40,990 bases of DNA from Acidimicrobiaceae bacterium (GTDB taxonomy: Bacteria > Actinomycetota > Acidimicrobiia > Acidimicrobiales > Palsa-688): contig PMHH01000155.1 of the NCBI GenBank assembly GCA_003156595.1, positions 1 through 40,990 of the forward strand, read 5' to 3'. Made by a program: the position numbers and the translations under genes. This document shows positions 10,870 through 21,147 of this stretch, piece after piece (position 1 is the first letter of the stretch; each line of letters begins with the position of its first letter). Below the pieces are notes generated by a model. The model searched no databases. It was not told the origin of the DNA and saw only the letters and a list, made by a program, of their open reading frames with translations.

Positions 10870-11526
10870 CTACAGCGGGTTCTGGCGGAGGTAGCCGTAG
10901 ATGGCGGCGAACCCCTCGTTGACCTTGTCCGGCAACGGAAGTGGCGATCCCAACGCCCGCGCCCCCCACACGATGTGGGCGCTGCGTTCGACTAGCGCGG
11001 TGATGTGCAACGCCGCCGCCGGGTGCGGCCCGACCGCCACCATCCCGTGGTTGGCGATGAGCGCGGCGCCGCGGCCTTCCAGGGCTTTGACCGCCTGCTC
11101 GCCCACATCGGTGGTGCCGCTCGCGGCGTACTCGGTGCAGCGCACCTCGCCACCGACGAAGATCGAGAACTCGTCGATACAGGCGGGGATGTCCTGGTGA
11201 GTGACCGCGAACATGGTCGCGTGCACCGGGTGGGAGTGGATCACCGAACCGATGTCGTCGAACGCTTTGTAGCTGGCGAGATGGAGCAGTTTCTCCGAGG
11301 AGGGCGATCGGCCGTCCTTGCTAGACAGGGTCTCGCCCTCGATGTCGATTACCACCAGATCGTCAAGCTGCATGTCGGCGTAATCCACCGACGACGGGGT
11401 GATCACGATGGTGCCATCTTGCTGGCGGGCTGAGATGTTGCCTGCTGTGCCCTCGACCAAGCCCTTGCGGAGCATGTCTTTGGCGGCTGCCAGCACCGCC
11501 TCCGGCGCATCCTCGACATATTTCAC
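10870..11526 (-). CDS. Class II aldolase/adducin family protein
   Basis: A 218-residue protein of the L-fuculose-phosphate aldolase / ribulose-phosphate 4-epimerase fold. Seen are GTAGNISAR (26-34), TPSSVDY, Glu78, and the zinc-binding His97 and His99 (HSHPVH) with His160 (IANHGMVAVG). The metal site is complete. Relatives cleave phosphorylated sugars or sugar acids into a three-carbon unit and an aldehyde, or decarboxylate phosphorylated keto-acids. GTG 11526 overlaps the stop of the 2-hydroxyacid dehydrogenase by 4 bp. A carbohydrate-type aldolase is unexpected among beta-oxidation genes. Confidence 0.9.
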   Translation of the reverse strand: MKYVEDAPEAVLAAAKDMLRKGLVEGTAGNISARQQDGTIVITPSSVDYADMQLDDLVVIDIEGETLSSKDGRSPSSEKLLHLASYKAFDDIGSVIHSHPVHATMFAVTHQDIPACIDEFSIFVGGEVRCTEYAASGTTDVGEQAVKALEGRGAALIANHGMVAVGPHPAAALHITALVERSAHIVWGARALGSPLPLPDKVNEGFAAIYGYLRQNPL

Positions 11527-12521
11527 GTGAGCACCTCCGGGTTGACGACGTGGACCGGCGCCTCGCCCGCCAGCAACCGGGCCACGTCGTCGGCGACCAT
11601 GGTGGCCTGACGGCACTCGGTGTCCCAAGTGGCGCCCCCGATGTGCGGGGTCAGCACCACGTTCGGCATGGCTACCAGTGGGTGGTCGACGGGCAGGTTC
11701 TCGCCTGCAAAGTGATCGAGGGCGGCGCCGGCCAGCTGGCCGGTTTGCAGGGCGGCTACCAGAGCGTCGGTGTCGTGGAGCTGGGCTCGGGCGGTGTTGA
11801 TATACACCGCGTCGGCACGCATGGCCGCGAACTGGTCAGGACCGATCATTCCGGCGGTGGCCTCGGAAACGGCAGCGTGCATGGACACCACATCCGAACG
11901 TTCGAGCAGCTCGGGCAGGGACACTTTGGCTTCGTCGTTGTAGGGATCGTGGGCGATGACCGTCATCCCCAGGCCCTCGAGGCGCCACCGCAGCGCCTGT
12001 CCCACCGACCCCAACCCGATAAGCCCGGCCGTGCGGCCGGCCAGCTCCCAGGCTCGGAACCGCTGGTAGGGGATGCTGCCATCGCGGTAGACCTGGCCGG
12101 AACGCACGTCGGCGTCGGCTTGCAGCACCTGCCTGGTCAGTGCGAACAGGAGAGCCACGGCGAGCTCCGCGACGGCGTCGGCGTTGCGGCCGGGACAGCG
12201 CAGCACCGGAATCCCCGCCGCCGTGGCTGCCGCCACGTCAACGTTGTTCGGGTCGGCTCGCGTGGCGGCGACGACCCGCAACGGTCGCTCGAAGACCTCT
12301 CGGCCCACGGTGTCGGCTTCGACGATCAGCACCTCGGCACCCTCCGCGTCGATCCGCTCGCACAGCTGCGCAGCCGAGTACATCCGCAGCGGATGCTGAT
12401 CGATCCATGGGTCATAGGTGACATCGGTCAGCTCGCACAGGCGGTCGAAACCCTCCCCGCGCAGGGGCGCCGTCACCAGGGCACGGGGGTGAGCTCTCGC
12501 ATCGGTCACGCCGGACATCAT
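11523..12521 (-). CDS. D-2-hydroxyacid dehydrogenase (NAD-binding)
   Basis: A 332-residue member of the D-isomer 2-hydroxyacid dehydrogenase family (phosphoglycerate / glycerate dehydrogenase-like). The Rossmann motif is GLGSVG (169-174). Catalytic candidates are Arg245 (INTAR), Glu274 (ALDHFAGE) and His293 (TPHIGGAT), all in the usual order. It probably interconverts a 2-hydroxyacid and a 2-ketoacid. It heads the minus operon that continues into the aldolase. Its start is divergent from the FGGY kinase, about 45 bp away. An ATG at 12518 is an equally good start. Confidence 0.9.
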   Translation of the reverse strand: MMSGVTDARAHPRALVTAPLRGEGFDRLCELTDVTYDPWIDQHPLRMYSAAQLCERIDAEGAEVLIVEADTVGREVFERPLRVVAATRADPNNVDVAAATAAGIPVLRCPGRNADAVAELAVALLFALTRQVLQADADVRSGQVYRDGSIPYQRFRAWELAGRTAGLIGLGSVGQALRWRLEGLGMTVIAHDPYNDEAKVSLPELLERSDVVSMHAAVSEATAGMIGPDQFAAMRADAVYINTARAQLHDTDALVAALQTGQLAGAALDHFAGENLPVDHPLVAMPNVVLTPHIGGATWDTECRQATMVADDVARLLAGEAPVHVVNPEVLT

Positions 12522-12564
12522 GGCCTACTCTGACCCTCATGTCATGCTCATGCTCGGTCGTGCC

Positions 12565-13908
12565 ATGGGCTCGGTGACCATCGGACTCGATATCGGTACC
12601 ACCTCCGTCAAGGCGGTGGCCGTCGACGGCGCGGGCACGATCGTGGCCCGCTCCCGCATACCCCACCGTCTGTTGGTGCCGGCGCCCGACCAGATGGAGC
12701 ACGACGCCAACCTGGCCTGGCGGCTCGGCCCGCGGCGAGCTCTGGCCGCCCTCGGCGACGTCGACGCGGTGGCGGTGGCGGTGGCGGCGATGGTGCCGTC
12801 CCTGACGGCGGTCGACGCCAGGGGCCGGCCCCTCACCCCGGGCCTGTTGTACGGGGACGCCCGGGGCCGGCCATCCGGCCGTTCGACTTCAGGCCCGACC
12901 GGTGATGGGGAGGTCGTCGGGTTCTTGGGTTGGACTGCTCAGATCGCCCCACAGGCGCGCGGATTTTGGCCCGCGCCAGCAGTAGCCAACCGGGCGCTGG
13001 GCGGGACAGCCGCCATCGACCTGGCGGTGGCGTTCACGTCCATGCCGCTTTACGGCGAAAACGGATGGGACTCTGAGGTCTGTGCCGAGTGCGGCGTACG
13101 CTCCGAGCAGCTCCCCGCCGTCGAGATGTTCGGTACCGCGGTCGGCCGCCTCGACGGCACCGGGCCAACGCTCTGCGCCGGCACCGTGGACGTCTGGTGT
13201 GAACAGTTGGTGGCCGGCGCCGGCGAGGACGGCGACGTCCACGTCATCTGCGGGACCACCCTGCTGGTGTGGGCGGTGGTCGATGAGCCGTCTGACGCCC
13301 CCGGGCTCTGGACCGTGGGGCACCGCATACCGGGCCGTCATCTAGTCGGGGGCGCCAGCAACGCCGGCGGCCTTTTCATCGACTGGGCCAGCCGGCTCCT
13401 AGGCCGACCCCGCGCCGGGGACCAGCTCGATCCCGCCAACATCCCGGTGTGGGCCCCCTACCCGCGTGGGGAACGGACCCCTTACCACGACCCGGCCCGG
13501 CGGGCCGCGCTGCACGGGTTGGACCTCACCCATGGAGCCGCGGCGGGGCAGCGGGCCGCCTGGGAGGCGTCCGGATTCGTGGTCCGGCACCACCTCGACC
13601 TGGCCGGAGTCCGACCACGACGGGTTGTCGCCACCGGAGGAGGCACCCGCTCCGACGGATGGATGCAGGCGCTCGCGGACGTCACCGGGATCCCGGTCCA
13701 TGTCGCCGCCGCGCCGGAGGGTGCCGCCCGCGGCGCGGCATTCCTAGCTCGCATCGCAGCCGGCCTCGAGACCGACATCAACGAAGCCGACAGATGGGCA
13801 TGCACCGGCCGGGTGGTCGAGCCAGACCCCAGCTGGGTGCCGGCCGTCAGCGACCGCTACGCCCAGTTCATGGAGGTGTCGGGCACGCCGGAAGCAGCCG
13901 AATCGTGA
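12565..13908 (+). CDS. FGGY-family carbohydrate kinase
   Basis: A 447-residue ATP-dependent sugar kinase. The N-terminal ATPase motif is GLDIGTTSVKAVAVD. The catalytic base is probably Asp209 in CAGTVDVWCEQLVAGAG, matching the xylulokinase/glycerol kinase pattern, and ICGTT and ATGGGTRSDGWMQ bind phosphate and adenosine. It is nearer xylulose, fuculose or autoinducer-2 kinases than glycerol kinase, but the N-terminal sugar site is short and divergent, so the substrate is unclear. ATG codons at 12520, 12544 and 12550 are alternative starts; none has a clear ribosome site. The stop overlaps the double ACAD by 4 bp (GTGA), and the gene is divergent from the 2-hydroxyacid dehydrogenase/aldolase genes. 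Confidence 0.88.
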   Translation: MGSVTIGLDIGTTSVKAVAVDGAGTIVARSRIPHRLLVPAPDQMEHDANLAWRLGPRRALAALGDVDAVAVAVAAMVPSLTAVDARGRPLTPGLLYGDARGRPSGRSTSGPTGDGEVVGFLGWTAQIAPQARGFWPAPAVANRALGGTAAIDLAVAFTSMPLYGENGWDSEVCAECGVRSEQLPAVEMFGTAVGRLDGTGPTLCAGTVDVWCEQLVAGAGEDGDVHVICGTTLLVWAVVDEPSDAPGLWTVGHRIPGRHLVGGASNAGGLFIDWASRLLGRPRAGDQLDPANIPVWAPYPRGERTPYHDPARRAALHGLDLTHGAAAGQRAAWEASGFVVRHHLDLAGVRPRRVVATGGGTRSDGWMQALADVTGIPVHVAAAPEGAARGAAFLARIAAGLETDINEADRWACTGRVVEPDPSWVPAVSDRYAQFMEVSGTPEAAES

Positions 13909-16169
13909 GCATCGCCATCACCGAAGAGCACGCCGCCCTCGCCGCCGCGGCCCGACGTTTCCTCGACAACCACTGCCCGCCGGCCGTTGCCCGGGCAGCC
14001 CTCGAGGCGGAGGTCGGATCGTTGCCGCCGTTCTGGGACGAGATGGCCAAGCTCGGTTGGCTGGGGCTCCACATCGACGAGGCCGACGGCGGGCAGGGCT
14101 TCGGTCTGGCCGAGTTGGCCGTGGTGGTCGAAGAGCTAGGGCGCGTCGGCGCGCCAGGGCCCTTCGTACCCACGGCGCTCGCCATCGCCGCCATAGCCCG
14201 CGGCGGCACGACGGTCCTGCGCCAGAGTGCGCTGCCGGGCCTTATCGCGGGCACGACAGTCGGGGCCGTGGCGTTGGCCACGTCCAGGCCGCTGGATGCC
14301 ACCGCTCCTGACGACGGCGGCACGATCACCCTGTCCGGCACGGCCAGGCCCATCCTGGGAGCGGCGATGGCCGACTGGGTGATCGTCGCGGCAGGAGGCC
14401 CTGGCGACGAACGGTGGTGCGTGGTACCAGCTGGGGATCTCACGGTCGCCCCGGTCCCCAGCCTCGACCCGACCCGCCCGTGCGGAACCGTCACCGCAAG
14501 CGGGGCCCGGGTGCCGGCCAGCCACCAGCTGGCGCTGCCGCCACGGGCAGTGGAGGACCTGGGGGCCGCGCTGTTGGCGGCGGAGTGTGCCGGCGGCGCC
14601 GGGTGGTGCCTGGAGACGGCCGCCGCCTACGCCACAGTGCGCGAGCAGTTTGGCCGGCCCATCGGCCAGTTCCAGGCCGTGAAGCACCGCTGCGCCGACA
14701 TGCTCGTGGCGGTGGAAGAGGCCCGGGCCGTCGCCTGGGACGCGGCCAGTGCCGTGGACCAGAGCAGGGACACCGGGCGCTATGACGAAGCCGCCCTCGC
14801 CGCTGCAGTGGCCGGCGCCGTGGCCCCCGACGCCTTCTTCCAGGTGGCCAAGGACTGCATCCAGGTGCTGGGCGGGATCGGCTTCACCTGGGAGCACGAC
14901 GCGCACCGGTATCTGCGGCGCGCTACCACCGTCCGCCAGCTGCTCGGAGGTCCGGCGCCTTGGCGGGAGCGGGTGGCCGGGCTGGCCCTGAGTGGTGTCC
15001 GCCGCCGGCTCGGCGTGGACCTGCCGGCCGAAACGGAGGCGCTGCGGTCCGAGGTAGGCGCCACGGCCGATGCCATCGCGGCGTGCCCGGCCGCCCAGCG
15101 ACGCACGGCCCTGGTGGATGCGGGCTTGTTCGTGCCGCACTGGCCCCGACCGTGGGGGCGGGCTGCAGGGGCGGTTGAGCAGCTGATCATCGACCAGGAA
15201 CTGCGCCGCGCCAAGCTCCGCCGGGCCCACCTGGCCGTGGGCGCCTGGGCCGCCCCGACGATCGCGACGCACGGGACGGCGGCCCAACAGGAGCGATGGG
15301 TACGCCCAACGCTGTTGGGCACGATCCAGTGGTGCCAGCTCTTCAGCGAGCCCGGGGCCGGGTCGGACCTGGCGGCGCTCGCCACCAAGGCGGTCGCCGC
15401 GAGCGGCGGCTGGTTGCTGAGCGGACAGAAGGTGTGGACGTCGCTGGCGGCAGAGGCAGACTGGGGAATCTGCCTGGCCCGAACCGACTCCTCCGTTGCC
15501 AAGCACCAGGGGATCACCTACTTCGTCGTGGACATGCGTAGCGCCGGGATCGAGATCCGCCCGCTCCGGGAGATGACAGGTAACACGATGTTCAACGAGG
15601 TCTACCTTTCGGACGTGTTCGTCCCGGACGACTGCGTAATCGGGCCCGTTCACGGAGGCTGGGCCCTGGCCCGCACCACGCTGGCCAACGAACGGGTGGC
15701 CATGGGGAGCGGGTCTTCGTTCGGTGGCGGGCTGGAGGCGCTGCTGGCCCTAGCCGGCGAGCTCGAGCGCGGTGCGCTCGACCGCGGTGTGCCCGGCCCC
15801 GGCGAGCTCGGCCCCGACGGGCTGGGACCGGTCGCCCGCGACGGCCTCGGCGCCCTGGTCGCCGAGGCCCAGACGGTCACCCTGCTCGGTCTCCGCTCCA
15901 CTCACCGGGCGGTGGCCGGCGCCGGCCCCGGGCCGGAGGCCAGCGTTCGCAAGCTGCTCGCCGCCGAGCACGACCAGCGCACCCAGGAGTATGGACTGGC
16001 CCTTCTCGCCGGCGAAGGCGCCACCACGGAAGGGGCGGCCGGCCAGTGGAGCTTCGGGTTCCTGGCCAACCGTTGCCTGACCATCGCCGGCGGGACCAGC
16101 GAGGTGCAGCGCAACGTGATCGCCGAACGGCTGCTGGGTCTACCGCGGGACGTCGAGCCTGGCGCCTAA
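13905..16169 (+). CDS. Double acyl-CoA dehydrogenase (two ACAD units fused)
   Basis: A 754-residue protein with two ACAD units in tandem. Unit 1 (about 1-365) is of the small type: FGRPIGQFQAVKHR and GGIGFTWEHDAHRYLRR, carrying the Glu that serves as base in relatives. Unit 2 (about 370-754) has the FSEPGAGSD loop, SGQKVWTS, and ends GGTSEVQRNVIAERLLGLPR. The order mirrors in one chain the two-subunit alpha2beta2 ACADs; the mycobacterial FadE34 is a known double-length example in steroid side-chain degradation. A Gly/Pro-rich run (GPGELGPDGLGP) sits in unit 2. GTG 13905 overlaps the kinase stop by 4 bp. Confidence 0.93.
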   Translation: MSIAITEEHAALAAAARRFLDNHCPPAVARAALEAEVGSLPPFWDEMAKLGWLGLHIDEADGGQGFGLAELAVVVEELGRVGAPGPFVPTALAIAAIARGGTTVLRQSALPGLIAGTTVGAVALATSRPLDATAPDDGGTITLSGTARPILGAAMADWVIVAAGGPGDERWCVVPAGDLTVAPVPSLDPTRPCGTVTASGARVPASHQLALPPRAVEDLGAALLAAECAGGAGWCLETAAAYATVREQFGRPIGQFQAVKHRCADMLVAVEEARAVAWDAASAVDQSRDTGRYDEAALAAAVAGAVAPDAFFQVAKDCIQVLGGIGFTWEHDAHRYLRRATTVRQLLGGPAPWRERVAGLALSGVRRRLGVDLPAETEALRSEVGATADAIAACPAAQRRTALVDAGLFVPHWPRPWGRAAGAVEQLIIDQELRRAKLRRAHLAVGAWAAPTIATHGTAAQQERWVRPTLLGTIQWCQLFSEPGAGSDLAALATKAVAASGGWLLSGQKVWTSLAAEADWGICLARTDSSVAKHQGITYFVVDMRSAGIEIRPLREMTGNTMFNEVYLSDVFVPDDCVIGPVHGGWALARTTLANERVAMGSGSSFGGGLEALLALAGELERGALDRGVPGPGELGPDGLGPVARDGLGALVAEAQTVTLLGLRSTHRAVAGAGPGPEASVRKLLAAEHDQRTQEYGLALLAGEGATTEGAAGQWSFGFLANRCLTIAGGTSEVQRNVIAERLLGLPRDVEPGA

Positions 16170-16402: not shown

Positions 16403-17596
16403 TCAGGCCAGCGGCCCCCGCCCATAGCGAGTGAGCCGCGCCGGCTCACCGTCGGTCACGAGCACCAGGTCCTGCTCGAGGACACCTCCGACACCGTCGA
16501 CCGCCACCCACGCCGTTACGGCCAGGACGGTTCCGGCCGCCAGCTGAGCCGACTGACCGACGCGGTGCCCAATCAGGGGGAGCTCGGCCCCGAGCCCCAC
16601 CCCACGAACGAAGGGTTCGGGCGGAGGGGCCTCGCCGGTGGAATCCCAGACCCGGCACAACTCCGCGCCAGTGGTGCCGGCTCGGCAGGCGTCCAGGACC
16701 GCCTGCAGCGTCTCCCGGCTCCGCTGGGCCAGGCGCCGCTGGGCCGGGCTGGGCACCATGGCCCCGACCACCCAGGTGCGAGCCAGCGTCCCCTCGTAGC
16801 CGGCGTAGAACGCGCCCGGGTTGAGGACGACGAGCTCACCGGGGGCAAGGCAGCGGTCGGTGGCGAGCCGGCGCAGCCGCACCGGGCCCTGGCGAGGGGT
16901 GGCGCAGACCACCGCCTCGGTCGGCGGGGTGGGCGCACCAAGCCCGGCAATCGCCTCTGCGTAGACTCCGAGCAGCTGGCGTTCGGACACTCCAGGATCC
17001 AGCGCCGCGACCAGCGCGGAGAGGGCCGCTTCGGCGATGCCGGCCGCCGACACGATGCATGCCAGTTCGTCGGGGGTCTTCGGCGTCCGGGCCCGAGATA
17101 GCACCGGGGCCGCATCCACCACGGCCGCGTGGGGGCAGAGGGCGGCCAGCAACTGGCGGGCGCCCGGGCTGAAACCGTCTGTCCCAACCTGGGCGGCGTC
17201 GCCAAGGCCGGCGATGGCGCCCAGGTTCGAGGCCAGGATGGCGGGGTTCCATGACAGCCCGAACAGCTCGTCATGACCGATCTCCGGCGGCACGCCCGCG
17301 TCCCACGTCGACAGTAGGTGCACCCGTCCGGTCGAGCGGACGACGAGGCAGGCCGGTCCGAACGGGCGCGTTCCGGCTGTCCACAGCTGCTGGGCGCCGG
17401 ACGCGTAAGCCACATTGGCCGGGCGGCCCAGGACCAGGACATCGACTCCGCCGGCGGCCATGGCGTCGAAAAGCCGGCGCCGGCGCTCGGCTCGGAGCCG
17501 GGCGAAGTCGATCTGGTCGGACGCGCCTGTGAGGCCGAGCACGCCGGCGCCGGCGCCGGCGATGGATCCGGCCCCCGGGCCGCCCGCCGCGCTCAC
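16403..17596 (-). CDS. M24-fold protein lacking metal ligands (pseudo-peptidase)
   Basis: A 397-residue protein with the creatinase/prolidase (M24) layout: an N-terminal domain then a pita-bread domain beginning near RARTPKTPDELACI. Aligned with its upstream neighbour, all five metal ligands are replaced: Asp by Asn259, Asp by Thr270, His by Arg331, Glu by Thr361 and Glu by Gln375. Binuclear metal hydrolysis is therefore unlikely. The fold seems intact with no frameshift, so it is probably a structural or regulatory partner, or a metal-free enzyme as creatinase is. GTG 17596 overlaps the stop of the intact paralogue by 4 bp, implying equimolar synthesis. Residues 6-22 are Gly/Ala-rich. Confidence 0.88.
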   Translation of the reverse strand: MSAAGGPGAGSIAGAGAGVLGLTGASDQIDFARLRAERRRRLFDAMAAGGVDVLVLGRPANVAYASGAQQLWTAGTRPFGPACLVVRSTGRVHLLSTWDAGVPPEIGHDELFGLSWNPAILASNLGAIAGLGDAAQVGTDGFSPGARQLLAALCPHAAVVDAAPVLSRARTPKTPDELACIVSAAGIAEAALSALVAALDPGVSERQLLGVYAEAIAGLGAPTPPTEAVVCATPRQGPVRLRRLATDRCLAPGELVVLNPGAFYAGYEGTLARTWVVGAMVPSPAQRRLAQRSRETLQAVLDACRAGTTGAELCRVWDSTGEAPPPEPFVRGVGLGAELPLIGHRVGQSAQLAAGTVLAVTAWVAVDGVGGVLEQDLVLVTDGEPARLTRYGRGPLA

Positions 17597-18819
17597 CAGG
17601 CCCCGACAAACGGGTCGTAGGGATGGGCGCTGAGCGGCACCCATCCGTCGTCGGTGATGGCGACGATGTCCTCGGCGCGATACCCGGCCGCGCCGTCATC
17701 CCAGATGACTGGCTCCAAGACGAACACCATCCCGGGCTGCAGAATCAGACGCTCGTCGAAGGACGCGCCGAGGTCGGTGCCGATGAGCGGCATTTCGGCG
17801 CTGTCTGTCCCCACCCCATGGGCCAGGTAAAAGTGTTCGATCCACGGCTTCACGCCCTCGTTGGCCGCGATCGCCGTCTGGCCGAGCTCCAATGCGGTGG
17901 TGCCTGGCTGACAGCGTTCTAGCACCGCCTCGACCACCGCCGCCCACCGGTCGAACTGCGCTTGCTGGCGAGCGCTGGGCGCCGGGTCGGCCCCCACGAT
18001 CCAGGTTCGGCCGAAGTCGGAGGCGTAGCCCTGGTAGGTGATGCCTGAGTCGACCCAGATCACGTCTCCTTCTCGGAGGAGGCGGTCGCCGGTCGCGAGA
18101 GGGAAGGCGATGTCACCATGAGTGGTCCACGGCCCGCCGGCGCGCATTGTCGGCATGACCTGCCAGATCGGGTCGATGGCGTTGGTAGTGGCGCCCAACT
18201 CGAATACCCGACGCAGGAACCGGGCGGTGAGGTCGGTCTGGCGCAACCCGGGTCGGAGCATCGCCTGGACATCCCACATAGCCAGCTCGTTGATGCGTTG
18301 GGCGGCGCGGATGCACGCCAACTCGTCCGGCGTCTTGCACAGCTTGGCCGCCCCGAGCACCGCCGCTGCGCTGGTGAACTCGCGGTCTGGGAGACCCCGA
18401 AGCATGGCGTGGGTGAGCTCGTCGCACCCGAGCCGCGCCCCTGGCTCGAACAGCTCGTCGAGCGCCCTCTTGATCGTCGTCACCCCTTCGTCCAGCTCGG
18501 GGTACAACGGGCCGTGCACGAACTCGGTCGGCAGCTCCGAGGGGGCCCCCTCTGGATGGGCGGTAAAGAGGTGGGCGGCCGGCGCGCCAGAGACCACGAT
18601 CGCCACCGTCCGGTCAAGGACCGCGTGGCTGCTGTCGACGGCGGGCGCTACCGCGCCGGTGGCGTACGCCACCGCGCTGGTGCCCATCAACACCAGGCCG
18701 TCGAGGCCAGCCGCTCCCAGCTGGTGCTGCAGCTTTTCGCCACGATCCCTGCGCATCCGGACGAGATCGGGAGCCGCAGGGATCGGCGCTCCGGCTATCA
18801 ACGATCCCACCTCCCCCAT
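17593..18819 (-). CDS. M24-family metallopeptidase (Xaa-Pro-peptidase-like)
   Basis: A 408-residue protein with an N-terminal creatinase-like domain and a complete M24 pita-bread site: Asp257 (WVDSG), Asp268 (SDFGRTW), His334 (AHGVG), Glu369 (LEPVIW) and Glu383 (RAEDI). Family members hydrolyse Xaa-Pro bonds or related C-N bonds. Similar genes occur in actinobacterial lipid and steroid clusters without a settled role. I chose ATG 18819; TTG 18858 is in frame but lies inside the operator at 18850-18884. The gene is divergent from the ACAD operon and coupled to the ligand-less paralogue downstream. Confidence 0.9.
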   Translation of the reverse strand: MGEVGSLIAGAPIPAAPDLVRMRRDRGEKLQHQLGAAGLDGLVLMGTSAVAYATGAVAPAVDSSHAVLDRTVAIVVSGAPAAHLFTAHPEGAPSELPTEFVHGPLYPELDEGVTTIKRALDELFEPGARLGCDELTHAMLRGLPDREFTSAAAVLGAAKLCKTPDELACIRAAQRINELAMWDVQAMLRPGLRQTDLTARFLRRVFELGATTNAIDPIWQVMPTMRAGGPWTTHGDIAFPLATGDRLLREGDVIWVDSGITYQGYASDFGRTWIVGADPAPSARQQAQFDRWAAVVEAVLERCQPGTTALELGQTAIAANEGVKPWIEHFYLAHGVGTDSAEMPLIGTDLGASFDERLILQPGMVFVLEPVIWDDGAAGYRAEDIVAITDDGWVPLSAHPYDPFVGAW

Positions 18820-18825
18820 CCAACC

Positions 18826-18843
18826 TATGACGTCGGCGTCATA
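18826..18843. promoter_or_regulatory. Second inverted repeat in the M24/ACAD promoter
   Basis: TATGACG-TCGG-CGTCATA is a perfect 7-bp inverted repeat with a 4-base centre, 7 bp upstream of the M24 ATG at 18819 and 7 bp from the TGTCCAA operator. It may be a binding site for another regulator or part of the M24 leader. If translation starts at TTG 18858 it would be coding instead. Confidence 0.4.
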
Positions 18844-18849
18844 GTATGG

Positions 18850-18884
18850 GCTGTCCAACTGAACAGAGGTCGTGGTTGGACAGC
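18850..18884. promoter_or_regulatory. TGTCCAA-N17-TTGGACA operator, copy 1
   Basis: Perfect 10-bp arms (GCTGTCCAAC at 18850-18859, GTTGGACAGC at 18875-18884) lie in the divergent promoter of the M24 pair and the ACAD-ligase-MaoC operon. The core TGTCCAA-N17-TTGGACA (18852-18882) recurs with identical 31-bp span at 39594-39624, beside a TetR gene. The first 11 bases, TGTCCAACTGA, are identical in both. This is good sequence evidence for a shared regulator; binding itself is inference. Confidence 0.75.
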
Positions 18885-18916
18885 GCCCCGACGTAGCGAC
18901 CGCGAGGGACCTGGCA

Positions 18917-20197
18917 TTGGACTACGACTTCGGCGAGCGGGCCTCAAAGCTGCGGAGCCGGTTGCGCGAGATGATCGCGGCCGAGATCCCAGCCGGCTAT
19001 CTTGGCGCCTTCACCGACGATCCGGCGGACCTCCACATCGCCCAGCACTTCTGCCGCCGCTTGGCCGAGGAGGGCCTCCTCACCGTGTCGTGGCCAGAGG
19101 AATATGGAGGGGGCGGCGGATCGGTGTGGGAGCAGACCGTCGTGCGGGAGGAGATGTGGTCCCATCACGAACCGCGCGGCGCCCAGTACATGGGGCTCAA
19201 CTGGGTCGGCCCGGCCATCATGGCGTTCGGTACCGACGCCCAAAAACAACGCTTCCTTCCGCCGATCGCCGCCGGTGAGGTGATCTGGTGCCAGGGGTTC
19301 AGCGAACCGGACGCCGGATCCGATCTGGCCTCGCTCACGACCCGTGCCGAACCTGACGGCGAAGGCCTCCGCATCACCGGGCAGAAGATCTGGACTTCCT
19401 ACGCGGAGATGGCCCAGTGGTGTGTGCTGGCGGCCCGGGTCGGTGTTCCCGGGGCCAACGGGGCCAAGAAGCACGAGGGCATCACCATCTTCCTCGTCCC
19501 GATGAATCGAGAGGGGATCACCGTGCGGCCCATTCGCAGCATGCTCGGCCCCCACCACCTCAACGAGTGCTTCTTTGACTCCGTACCGGTTGAAGCCGAC
19601 GAAGTGCTGGGCGGCGTTGGGCAGGGATGGAACGTCATCCGCCGGGCGCTCGCCCACGAGCGGGTCGGCATCGCCCGCTACGCCCGTTGCGACCGGCTCA
19701 TGTCGCAATACACCGGCAAGGCGGACGGATGGCGCGCCCTGCCGGCCGGGCTACGCCAGCAGTGGGTGCGCGCCCTGGTGCAGATCCGGGTCGCCCGGCT
19801 CCTCGCGTACCGCGCCGTCGCCGAGCAGGAGGCCGGCCAGCCGCGCGACGCCACCGCTAGCGTGGCCCGCCTGGCCGTGACCCAGTGCGACCAGCAGGTG
19901 GCGGAGCTCCTGTTCCAGGCCATCGAGGACCGAAGCCTGGAAGGCTCCGACACCGGCGTGGAAAGCAAAGCCGCACCGAATCCGGCCGGGTCCAGTACTG
20001 CTGCGATTCCCGAGCGGCCGCCTTTTACCGACAAGCCATTGTCGGTAAAGGGCGGCCGCCAACGAAGTCACGCCTTTCTGGACGGCGCCATCGAGGACCA
20101 CTGGCGCTACGCCCAGGCCGCCACCGTGGCCGCCGGCACCATCGAGATCCAGCGCATGATCGTGGCCCGCGCCCTCCTTGGGACTCGGTCCTCGTGA
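18917..20197 (+). CDS. Acyl-CoA dehydrogenase with a palindromic in-frame insert
   Basis: A 426-residue ACAD with FSEPDAGSD, TGQKIWTS and the C-terminal AAGTIEIQRMIVARALLG helix. The stretch between VAELL and EDHWRY is about 35 residues longer than in the related ACAD at 3101-4300 and includes a Ser/Pro/Ala-rich run and a near-perfect DNA palindrome (20014-20059). The frame stays open, and both flanks keep the family pattern. TTG 18917 is chosen as start because GAGGGA sits 7 bases upstream; GTG 18872 lies inside the operator. Its stop overlaps the next ACAD by 4 bp, and the two probably form one heteromeric enzyme. Confidence 0.9.
   Translation: MDYDFGERASKLRSRLREMIAAEIPAGYLGAFTDDPADLHIAQHFCRRLAEEGLLTVSWPEEYGGGGGSVWEQTVVREEMWSHHEPRGAQYMGLNWVGPAIMAFGTDAQKQRFLPPIAAGEVIWCQGFSEPDAGSDLASLTTRAEPDGEGLRITGQKIWTSYAEMAQWCVLAARVGVPGANGAKKHEGITIFLVPMNREGITVRPIRSMLGPHHLNECFFDSVPVEADEVLGGVGQGWNVIRRALAHERVGIARYARCDRLMSQYTGKADGWRALPAGLRQQWVRALVQIRVARLLAYRAVAEQEAGQPRDATASVARLAVTQCDQQVAELLFQAIEDRSLEGSDTGVESKAAPNPAGSSTAAIPERPPFTDKPLSVKGGRQRSHAFLDGAIEDHWRYAQAATVAAGTIEIQRMIVARALLGTRSS
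20014..20059. repeat. 46-bp palindromic element inside an ACAD gene
   Basis: Arms 20014-20033 and 20040-20059 are complementary over 20 bp except for one position (a G-T pair as RNA), with the 6-base loop AGCCAT. The outer ends read GCGGCCGCC. It encodes part of the extra segment (ERPPFTDKPLSVKGGR) without breaking the frame. The structure resembles in-frame palindromic elements such as those of Rickettsia, or a small non-autonomous mobile repeat. I found no second copy in this window. Confidence 0.75.
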
Positions 20198-21147
20198 ACC
20201 TGGAGCTGCCGGACGAGGCCGTGCAGTTCGGGGCGACGGCGGAGAAGGCCCTCACTGCGCTCGGCGGGGTCGACCTGGCCCGAGACGCAGAGAGGGAGCG
20301 GGAGCCGGATATCCGATTGGCAAAGGTAGGCAATGCGATCGACAGCCTGGGCGCCGACCAGCTCGATCCCCGCGTCGACATCGAAACGGCAGCCGCCGCC
20401 GGCGAGCTCTGCCGCGTCGCGGGGCGGCTCGCCATCCCCTACCCGGTGGTCGCGGTCCTGCTCCGAGATCCCGTGGACCTGTTGCCGTTCGCGCTGGTGC
20501 CGGACGACCGTTGCCGAGCTGACCACGGCGATCTGTTCTCGGAGTGGCGGGTCGCCGCACCGGGCGGGCAGCAGGCCGTTGCCATGCCGGTCGGGTCACG
20601 TTTCGGCTCCAAGCTCGGTCCGTTCGTCACGGACTTGACGCCTACCGGCGAGTGGCAAGGGACCGCCCCTGGTGACGTGGCGCTGCACTTGACCTTGACC
20701 TCATGGCGGATACTGGGCACCACCGAGCGATCCCTGGAGCTGGCCATCGATCACGTCGGCGAGCGGGTGCAATTCGGCCAACCGCTGTCGGCGTTCCAGG
20801 CGGTCCAGTTCCAACTGGCCGACGCCGCAGTCGGCACGGACGGGCTGCGGGAGTTGTGCCACTTCACGTTGTGGCGACTCTTTGCCGATCCCGACGCCGG
20901 GCTAGCCGATGCCCTGGCCTTGCGGCTCCATGCCGTGGACACCGCCCGGGCCGTGTTGCGAACCAGTCAGCAGCTGCACGGCGCGGCCGGCCTGTGCGAC
21001 GAGTACGACGTGTCGGTGCTCGCCCGTCACGTTCAGCCTGACCTCCGCTTGCCTTTCGGATCGGAACGGACCTCGGCCGAACTCGTCGAGGCCGTGTCCC
21101 GGCTGGGATTCGCCAGCCTCTTTCCCCAGGGCGGCCTGGACCCATGA
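20194..21147 (+). CDS. Acyl-CoA dehydrogenase-like subunit (short)
   Basis: A 317-residue ACAD-family protein, about 50-80 residues shorter than its neighbours. The C-terminal domain is recognisable (VQFGQPLSAFQAVQFQLADAAVG, then LHGAAGLCDEYDVSVLARHVQPDL). The GGxGFTWE segment that carries the acidic base in related subunits reads GAAGLCDEYD, and the SEPxAGSD loop is absent. It is most likely the non-catalytic or partner subunit of the ACAD just upstream. GTG 20194 overlaps that gene's stop, and its own stop overlaps the ligase ATG; both overlaps are 4 bp. Confidence 0.88.
   Translation: MNLELPDEAVQFGATAEKALTALGGVDLARDAEREREPDIRLAKVGNAIDSLGADQLDPRVDIETAAAAGELCRVAGRLAIPYPVVAVLLRDPVDLLPFALVPDDRCRADHGDLFSEWRVAAPGGQQAVAMPVGSRFGSKLGPFVTDLTPTGEWQGTAPGDVALHLTLTSWRILGTTERSLELAIDHVGERVQFGQPLSAFQAVQFQLADAAVGTDGLRELCHFTLWRLFADPDAGLADALALRLHAVDTARAVLRTSQQLHGAAGLCDEYDVSVLARHVQPDLRLPFGSERTSAELVEAVSRLGFASLFPQGGLDP

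Follow-up and report, generated by a model that had tools for sequence, protein, structure and literature searches.

Pita-bread (M24) enzymes are widespread, and several of them borrow residues from a neighbouring subunit. Asp45 of Escherichia coli PepQ, carried on an N-domain loop of one monomer, enters the active site of the other monomer (PMC4213023), and in the bacterial aminopeptidase P, PepP, Trp88' from the adjacent subunit helps substrate binding (PMC5723419). Other papers describe pairs of catalytic and inert homologues. In ChsH1-ChsH2 the catalytic dyad is present only in ChsH1, and the steroid rings are held by ChsH2 (PMC11321319); the active and zinc-less subunits of the mitochondrial processing peptidase (MPP) alpha/beta (family M16) heterodimerise, with the inactive one supplying needed residues (PMC11266112); and PID-5 of Caenorhabditis elegans, a homologue poor in metal ligands, is predicted to heterodimerise with the intact aminopeptidase P APP-1 (PMC10377022). 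The M24 entry of a pseudopeptidase review, in the portion available, names only EBP1. Our literature search turned up no account of an enzyme paired with a pseudoenzyme among bacterial M24 proteins, a weak absence since most subscription papers lay beyond its reach. Here we analyse two adjacent M24 genes, the upstream gene A and the downstream gene B, in a stretch of 40,990 nucleotides (the window; GCA_003156595.1, contig PMHH01000155.1, positions 1 to 40,990) from an Acidimicrobiaceae bacterium. We find that B is an old, selected pseudoenzyme that travels with A, and that evolutionary constraint is split by domain between the two proteins.

Both genes lie on the minus strand and overlap where A stops and B starts:

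17593-18819, minus strand: gene A, M24 (pita-bread) enzyme with five metal ligands; 408 amino acids, PF00557 121.5 bits, predicted local distance difference test (pLDDT) 87.2
16403-17596, minus strand: gene B, M24 pseudoenzyme without a canonical metal ligand; 397 amino acids, GTG start, PF00557 84.7 bits, pLDDT 86.6
17593-17596, minus strand: GTGA overlap of the A stop and the B start, read from the sequence

The ATG of A is at 18819 and its stop codon ends at 17593; the GTG of B is at 17596. The two proteins share 31% identity over 366 aligned positions. Both exceed the 23-bit cut-off of the M24 profile PF00557 in a Pfam search, and their single-chain models match solved M24 structures with Z > 32, which places both in the pita-bread superfamily. 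The A model matched 4r60 (Z 32.7, 3.1 Å, 354 aligned residues) and the DddP structure 4b28 (2.9 Å, 374 aligned) best among solved structures, and the best match of the B model was another DddP structure, 4rzy (Z 36.0, 2.8 Å, 374 aligned). The initial annotation of this locus, made from the letters alone, had given the coordinates, the intact frames, the five ligands of A and their five replacements in B correctly. The 4-bp overlap it reported exists in the window but is not a general rule: across 52 pairs the junction was -11 bp in 33, -4 in 9, -1 in 1, a short gap in 8 and unresolved in 1, counts for which the B start nearest the A stop was taken, a choice that favours overlap.

We compared the metal sites in a joint alignment of 129 M24 sequences, from which the own-genome matches (L001-L005) were excluded. 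The ligands of A, seen in the sequence and in this alignment, and the residues that the alignment places in the same columns of B are as follows:

18049-18051, minus strand: A metal ligand D257
18016-18018, minus strand: A metal ligand D268
17818-17820, minus strand: A metal ligand H334
17713-17715, minus strand: A metal ligand E369
17671-17673, minus strand: A metal ligand E383
16820-16822, minus strand: B N259, in the column of A D257
16787-16789, minus strand: B T270, in the column of A D268
16604-16606, minus strand: B R331, in the column of A H334
16514-16516, minus strand: B T361, in the column of A E369
16472-16474, minus strand: B Q375, in the column of A E383

The five B residues fall exactly in the ligand columns, so that by this sequence alignment the window B has no Asp, Glu or His in any of them; the acidic residues nearby are E268, two positions before T270, and E374 and D376, which flank Q375. 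In a first set of 53 rows, every A protein carries DDHEE, whereas B retains none of the five ligands in 38 rows, one in 14 and two in a single row. E369 is kept in 0 of the 53 B rows, D257 in 5, H334 in 9, D268 in 1 and E383 in 1. Because A is DDHEE throughout this set while B keeps only none to two of the five, the loss in B is not a matter of chance. We also read 20 of the 31 pairs from the order-level sample described below, picked to include distant ones. DDHEE recurred in 19 of the 21 A rows, the remaining two being pieces of one broken gene (G549), and Asp stood in the D257 column of 15 of the 20 distant B proteins. The five ligands that mark M24B Xaa-Pro peptidases are thus present in A (53/53 and 19/21 new rows) and not in B, with no row among the 53 keeping more than two and the window B keeping none.

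The dead site of B has a character of its own. At positions 268, 270, 331 and 375, compared over 73 rows, Glu often occupies the second Asp column or the position two residues ahead of that column, and Arg is common in the columns of the His and of the last Glu. This Glu/Arg pattern may perhaps represent a salt bridge in place of the metals.

We next consider how the pair is distributed. The whole of a species-genome collection was scanned for B with six exact short peptides, a search that distant members would escape and that says little about genomes outside the Actinobacteria. It returned 47 loci, and A lay directly upstream of B in 45 of them, so that the adjacent intact and ligand-less M24 genes that the initial annotation suggested looking for in actinobacteria do exist elsewhere; at L078 the contig ends just after A, and the alphaproteobacterial L082 is a non-member. 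Carriers include Mycobacterium, Mycolicibacter, Streptomyces, Pseudonocardia, a metagenome-assembled genome (MAG) of the Frankiaceae, and Acidimicrobiia-type or unclassified actinobacterial MAGs. Among 99 relatives, orthologues (at least 195 bits) of B occurred in 8 genomes, which were also those with orthologues of A; one further genome, G004, encodes an A-like protein of only 176 bits, whose gene reaches the contig end, and has no B downstream. In a sample of 396 genomes from the phylum, A was found at 15 places and B at 15, in the same 12 genomes and always adjacent. In a sample of 298 genomes from the order, both were found in the same 30 genomes as 31 pairs, of which 30 were adjacent on one contig and one (G043) was split between two contig ends. 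The samples overlap, since many of the 99 relatives are also in the order sample and every sample contains the window and some relatives. The pair is thus conserved, as the coincidence of genomes in the phylum and order samples attests, and neither at the 47 scan loci nor in the 99-, 396- and 298-genome samples did we meet a clear A without B, G004 being the only candidate.

Three genomes of the phylum sample (G191, G465 and G472) and one of the order sample (G544) carry two A-B pairs each, the second copies being paired as well. At L157, in G549, A is split into two frames and the adjoining B is open; a recent inactivation or an assembly error is possible.

The history of the two genes points the same way. 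In a maximum-likelihood tree (67 rows in the A/B clade tree), the A clade (support 100/100) and the B clade (100/99) are sisters with matching subclades, and A, B and one intact row beside A (L021) group together with support 99/96. Domain and distance alignments were made for 28 of the 45 paired loci plus the window (29 matched loci), and the pairwise distances of A and B correlated at 0.97 over the 406 pairs of loci. In 10 close pairs the ratio of nonsynonymous to synonymous substitution rates (dN/dS) was 0.06-0.27 for A and 0.08-0.26 for B, and both are under purifying selection. Co-retention and dN/dS rule out that B is a pseudogene or a sequencing artefact. Given the ligand loss, the matching subclades, the distance correlation and the low dN/dS, we conclude that B is a pseudoenzyme of long standing, maintained by selection, whose association with A goes back, most simply, to a single duplication. 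A and B are homologous, one of them is without active-site residues, and they are co-inherited, as in other enzyme/pseudoenzyme pairs; that the two genes are inherited together, have mirrored trees and are under purifying selection strongly supports the selected pair proposed in the initial annotation.

We then asked where in B the constraint lies, dividing the protein as follows:

17084-17497, minus strand: B N-terminal domain, residues 34-171, the conserved half and proposed cover of the A active site (identity and length)
17354-17386, minus strand: B loop, residues 71-81, candidate cross-dimer segment (conservation and HMMER alignment to creatinase)
16433-17080, minus strand: B C-terminal pita-bread domain, residues 173-388, dead by residue content (ligand columns and length)

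Across the 29 matched loci, mean pairwise identity was 58% in the N-domain and 69% in the C-domain of A, and 65% in the N-domain and 56% in the C-domain of B. A control of unpaired intact M24 proteins (12 of 23 unpaired rows, all from one tree clade) gave 38% for the N-domain and 58% for the C-domain. The median ratio of N-domain to C-domain distances was 1.47 for A, 1.77 for the control and 0.69 for B. The constraint is therefore reversed: the catalytic domain is the better conserved one in A, and the N-domain in B. The N-domain of B is also better conserved than that of A (65% versus 58% at the 29 loci). In the 10 close pairs, mean dN/dS was 0.122 and 0.098 for the N- and C-domains of A and 0.120 and 0.144 for those of B, and the value for the B N-domain was below that of the B C-domain in 8 of the 10.

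Within the N-domain of B, the stretch that follows the first beta-alpha unit is strongly conserved over 73 rows (L71 in 72, W72 in 70, G75 in 72, R77 in 65 and F79 in 70). R77 is aligned, in one HMMER profile alignment, to the Arg of the creatinase motif FGRPY, which we take to be Arg64. In creatinase Phe62 and Arg64 act across the dimer, the Arg as a substrate ligand. Another candidate, Trp98 of B as an invariant cross-dimer residue like Trp88' of PepP, was weakened, as it is present in 52 of 53 rows of the first set but in only 16 of 20 of the distant set.

The lengths of the two domains tell a similar story. In the scan of the order sample, profile matches to distant B proteins often end after the N-domain. 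In 15 of the 20 distant pairs that we read, the B C-domain is down to 156-167 residues, where the first 53 rows have a median of 214 and a range of 200-226; we call a B with a C-domain of at most 167 residues short. The loss amounts to about 50 residues around the former cleft. In the five short B proteins that were mapped, gaps fall at B 232-250 or 254, at 281 to 292-294, at 320 to 325-328 (314-326 in one) and at 364-368 or 372, and some of these proteins have further small gaps. The first of these aligns with the segment that bears the catalytic His in relatives; the one near 320-328 lies beside the H334 column, and the one at 364-372 falls between those of E369 and E383. A tree of 48 rows requires a minimum of two switches between the full-length and the short form of B, and the best tree has four, so that the shortening probably happened more than once. 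The B N-domain keeps its length in all 20 distant pairs (138 residues, 135 in two), and the A partners are not shortened, with C-domains of 237-254 residues where the gene is unbroken. Such shrinkage of the dead domain, next to an N-domain locked in length, would be expected if the N-domain is the part of B that still works.

Because homo-oligomers of this fold such as PepQ and PepP lend residues across subunits, we propose that A and B share a composite site. The ancestor would have been a homodimeric pita-bread enzyme in which each N-domain entered the active site of the partner, giving two composite sites. After duplication the metal-binding catalytic domain would have been kept by A and lost by B, leaving one site, in which the dinuclear metal centre of A would be completed by the N-domain of B, binding and positioning the substrate. 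The N-domain of A would then face the dead cleft of B and be under weaker constraint, and the dead cleft itself would be free to shrink. The complex would most likely act on a bulky compound in cytochrome P450- and coenzyme A (CoA)-dependent catabolism, perhaps by hydrolysing an amide or similar bond, the freed acid then being activated with CoA. By analogy and from the sequences, a physical complex of A and B is likely, and we give a probability of roughly 60% to the proposal as a whole, namely an obligate A-B heteromer, derived from a duplicated homodimeric enzyme, in whose single composite site A supplies the metal and the N-domain of B the lid. The substrate class, which we infer, is its weakest step.

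Several observations weigh against this proposal. On the short time scale of the close pairs, the N-domain of B is no more constrained than that of A (0.120 versus 0.122). None of the proposed lid residues of B is universal, W98 being present in 68, W72 in 70 and R77 in 65 of 73 rows. The 406 locus pairs behind the correlation of 0.97, like the domain identities, are not independent of ancestry. Finally, the pseudo-site of B is patterned, with Glu in 42, Arg in 39 and Arg in 41 of 53 rows at three ligand columns, which a mere relic would not need.

Alternatively, B might be a regulatory or inhibitory partner, or a scaffold, that binds, tunes or localises A and contributes nothing to the active site. 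Such a role was proposed for the nearest M24 analogue, PID-5/APP-1 of C. elegans (PMC10377022), and the strict 1:1 adjacency of the genes suits any stoichiometric partner. It would not predict, however, a B N-domain that is conserved and locked in length beside a shrinking remainder, nor that no A clearly lacks a B (G004, the sole candidate, has an A-like protein of 176 bits encoded at a contig end), and we consider it unlikely. An acidic residue and two Arg that recur where B once had its metal site (53 rows) would fit a different possibility, namely that B is itself an enzyme with a metal-free, repurposed site, like creatinase, and works beside A in the pathway. Indeed, HMMER aligns the B profile with creatinase 1chm along its entire length (E 1.1e-25), and the B model superimposes on it with Z 34.1 and a root-mean-square deviation of 2.7 over 351 aligned residues. 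We looked for the His of the creatinase motif GAHNP, presumably the catalytic His232, and in the HMMER alignment it faces Arg in the B consensus; the five mapped short B proteins lack the corresponding segment (B 232-250 or more), and the C-domain is shortened in 15 of the 20 distant ones. This disfavours a creatinase-like, metal-free B, which we regard as improbable. It is less plausible still that B is a weakened enzyme in which one metal is bound through neighbouring acidic or His residues: the few ligands kept (D257 in 5, H334 in 9, D268 in 1 and E383 in 1 of 53 rows) and the Asp in the D257 column of 15 of 20 distant proteins would speak for it, but E369 is never kept in the 53 rows, no row has more than two of the five, and the window B has none. 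That B is a decaying, functionless duplicate, as the shrinkage of its dead domain in some lineages might suggest, can be dismissed almost with certainty, since its frames are open, its dN/dS is 0.08-0.26 and it is kept with A across the samples.

The composite-site proposal leaves the chemistry of A to be considered. The second active-site His of Xaa-Pro peptidases, seven residues after the metal His, is present in the peptidases aligned to the A profile and is Ala in all 73 scorable A rows; the next residue is Glu in every one of the 53 rows of the first set. At position 234, the column of the catalytic His in a gappy alignment, A has His in 50, Thr in 19, Asn in 2, Ser in 2 and a gap in 1 of 74 rows. 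Membership in the non-peptidase families DddP (NF043017; A 59.9 and B 32.3 bits against a cut-off of 600) and DoeA (TIGR02993 and NF038259; at most 34.3 bits for either protein against cut-offs of 575 and 613) was rejected. Because the second His is replaced by Ala, His stands at 234 in only 50 of 74 rows and the DddP and DoeA scores are far below the cut-offs, some other hydrolase or lyase activity seems more likely for A than Xaa-Pro cleavage.

The surroundings of the pair suggest the breakdown of a bulky cyclic compound. In the window the neighbours include acyl-CoA dehydrogenases, an AMP-forming CoA ligase, a FAS1/MaoC-type dehydratase and TetR regulators, as well as a P450, thiolases, an enoyl-CoA hydratase and a CoA-transferase. 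Over 46 loci (the window included, L078 and L082 excluded) the recurrent neighbours are CoA-transferase family III (38 loci), short-chain dehydrogenases/reductases (36), P450 (35), TetR (35), Amidohydro_2 (27) and crotonase (20), with the reservation that the clusters may lump paralogues and were each named from one member. A cluster of the 3-ketosteroid-delta-1-dehydrogenase type is present at 8 loci; its scanned member scored 627 bits, below the cut-off of 789. On an 864-kb plasmid of Mycobacterium branderi (L124; NZ_AP022607.1, 545739-574764), a P450, an amidohydrolase, A and B stand in a row, showing that the module can be plasmid-borne. There A is annotated as 'Xaa-Pro peptidase family protein' and B as 'M24 family metallopeptidase'.

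Upstream of A we noted the following:

18825-18844 and 18850-18859/18875-18884 (stretch 18825-18884), no strand assigned: two palindromes, candidate operator

They lie in the gap separating A from a divergent acyl-CoA dehydrogenase gene (open reading frame (ORF) from 18872, plus strand), and a stretch resembling the first palindrome (18825-18844) lies upstream of A at L037. The stretch is a candidate operator common to A and the acyl-CoA dehydrogenase gene, or could belong to an N-terminal extension of A. The initial annotation had placed the pair in a CoA-catabolic regulon. CoA-catabolic genes do surround it, but a regulon held together by a common operator found no support, as each palindrome is found once in the genome; one-arm near-matches in the window were slightly more frequent than by chance (15 versus 8.4, with 4 of 100 shuffles as high).

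Other features of the window were noted in passing. The acyl-CoA dehydrogenase genes at 18872-20197 and 19885-21147 are adjacent and overlap, and the second has only the C-terminal Pfam domains above cut-off; by their sequences they are possibly another pair of catalytic and degenerate subunits. The ORF at 13449-16169 contains two acyl-CoA dehydrogenase units, with the N- and C-terminal domains each matched twice, and translation probably begins close to 13900, past the kinase gene. A class II aldolase, a D-isomer 2-hydroxyacid dehydrogenase and an FGGY sugar kinase (10870-13908) lie beside the CoA-catabolic genes, a sugar-like module in an unexpected place.

More tentatively, and with rather less confidence than we have in the composite site, the pairs can be read as a natural series from a symmetric two-site to an asymmetric one-site enzyme. 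B would be on its way to becoming a dedicated N-domain lid, its dead domain still complete in some lineages and about a quarter shorter around the former cleft in others, probably through repeated losses, and A would have a new, non-peptidase activity (amide, carbamate or C-X cleavage) on bulky compounds of P450- and CoA-dependent catabolism, its specificity coming from B. The pair resembles a natural experiment in which the bargain of a homodimer has been split, the metal to one gene and the lid to the other. If this is true, reversed domain conservation in paired paralogues would be a rule for spotting split homodimers, a protein annotated 'M24 family metallopeptidase' would have to be re-read as a non-catalytic subunit, and an assay of A alone would miss the activity. 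The catalytic/inert heteromers of actinobacterial CoA catabolism would be extended to another fold.

Heteromers of a catalytic and an inert subunit are already a known kind, and A-B appears, by analogy, to work like ChsH1-ChsH2 while standing outside that family. What is new here is the split of constraint by domain between A and B. ChsH1-ChsH2, like other heteromeric MaoC hydratases of actinobacterial steroid catabolism, is a homologous catalytic/inert pair with a single composite site, in the CoA-dependent degradation of a bulky substrate; it differs in having the MaoC fold and hydratase chemistry rather than a pita-bread fold and metal ligands, and its complex is proven whereas that of A-B is predicted. 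PID-5/APP-1 shares with A-B the M24 fold and the combination of an intact enzyme with a ligand-poor homologue. It is an animal system, however, in which PID-5 is a germline protein of several domains, possibly with one zinc retained, and the accessible part of that account describes neither an adjacent gene pair nor a reversed domain conservation. MPP is also an active/inactive metallopeptidase pair but belongs to another family, M16. DddP, DoeA and creatinase resemble A and B as pita-bread non-peptidases of small-molecule catabolism and are among the top structural matches, yet A and B are far below the NCBIfam cut-offs of the first two, and by alignment the creatinase His is without a counterpart in B. 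PepQ and PepP, which belong to M24B, share with A the fold and the five ligands and use residues across the dimer; their subunits are identical, unlike those of A-B, and A is without their second active-site His.

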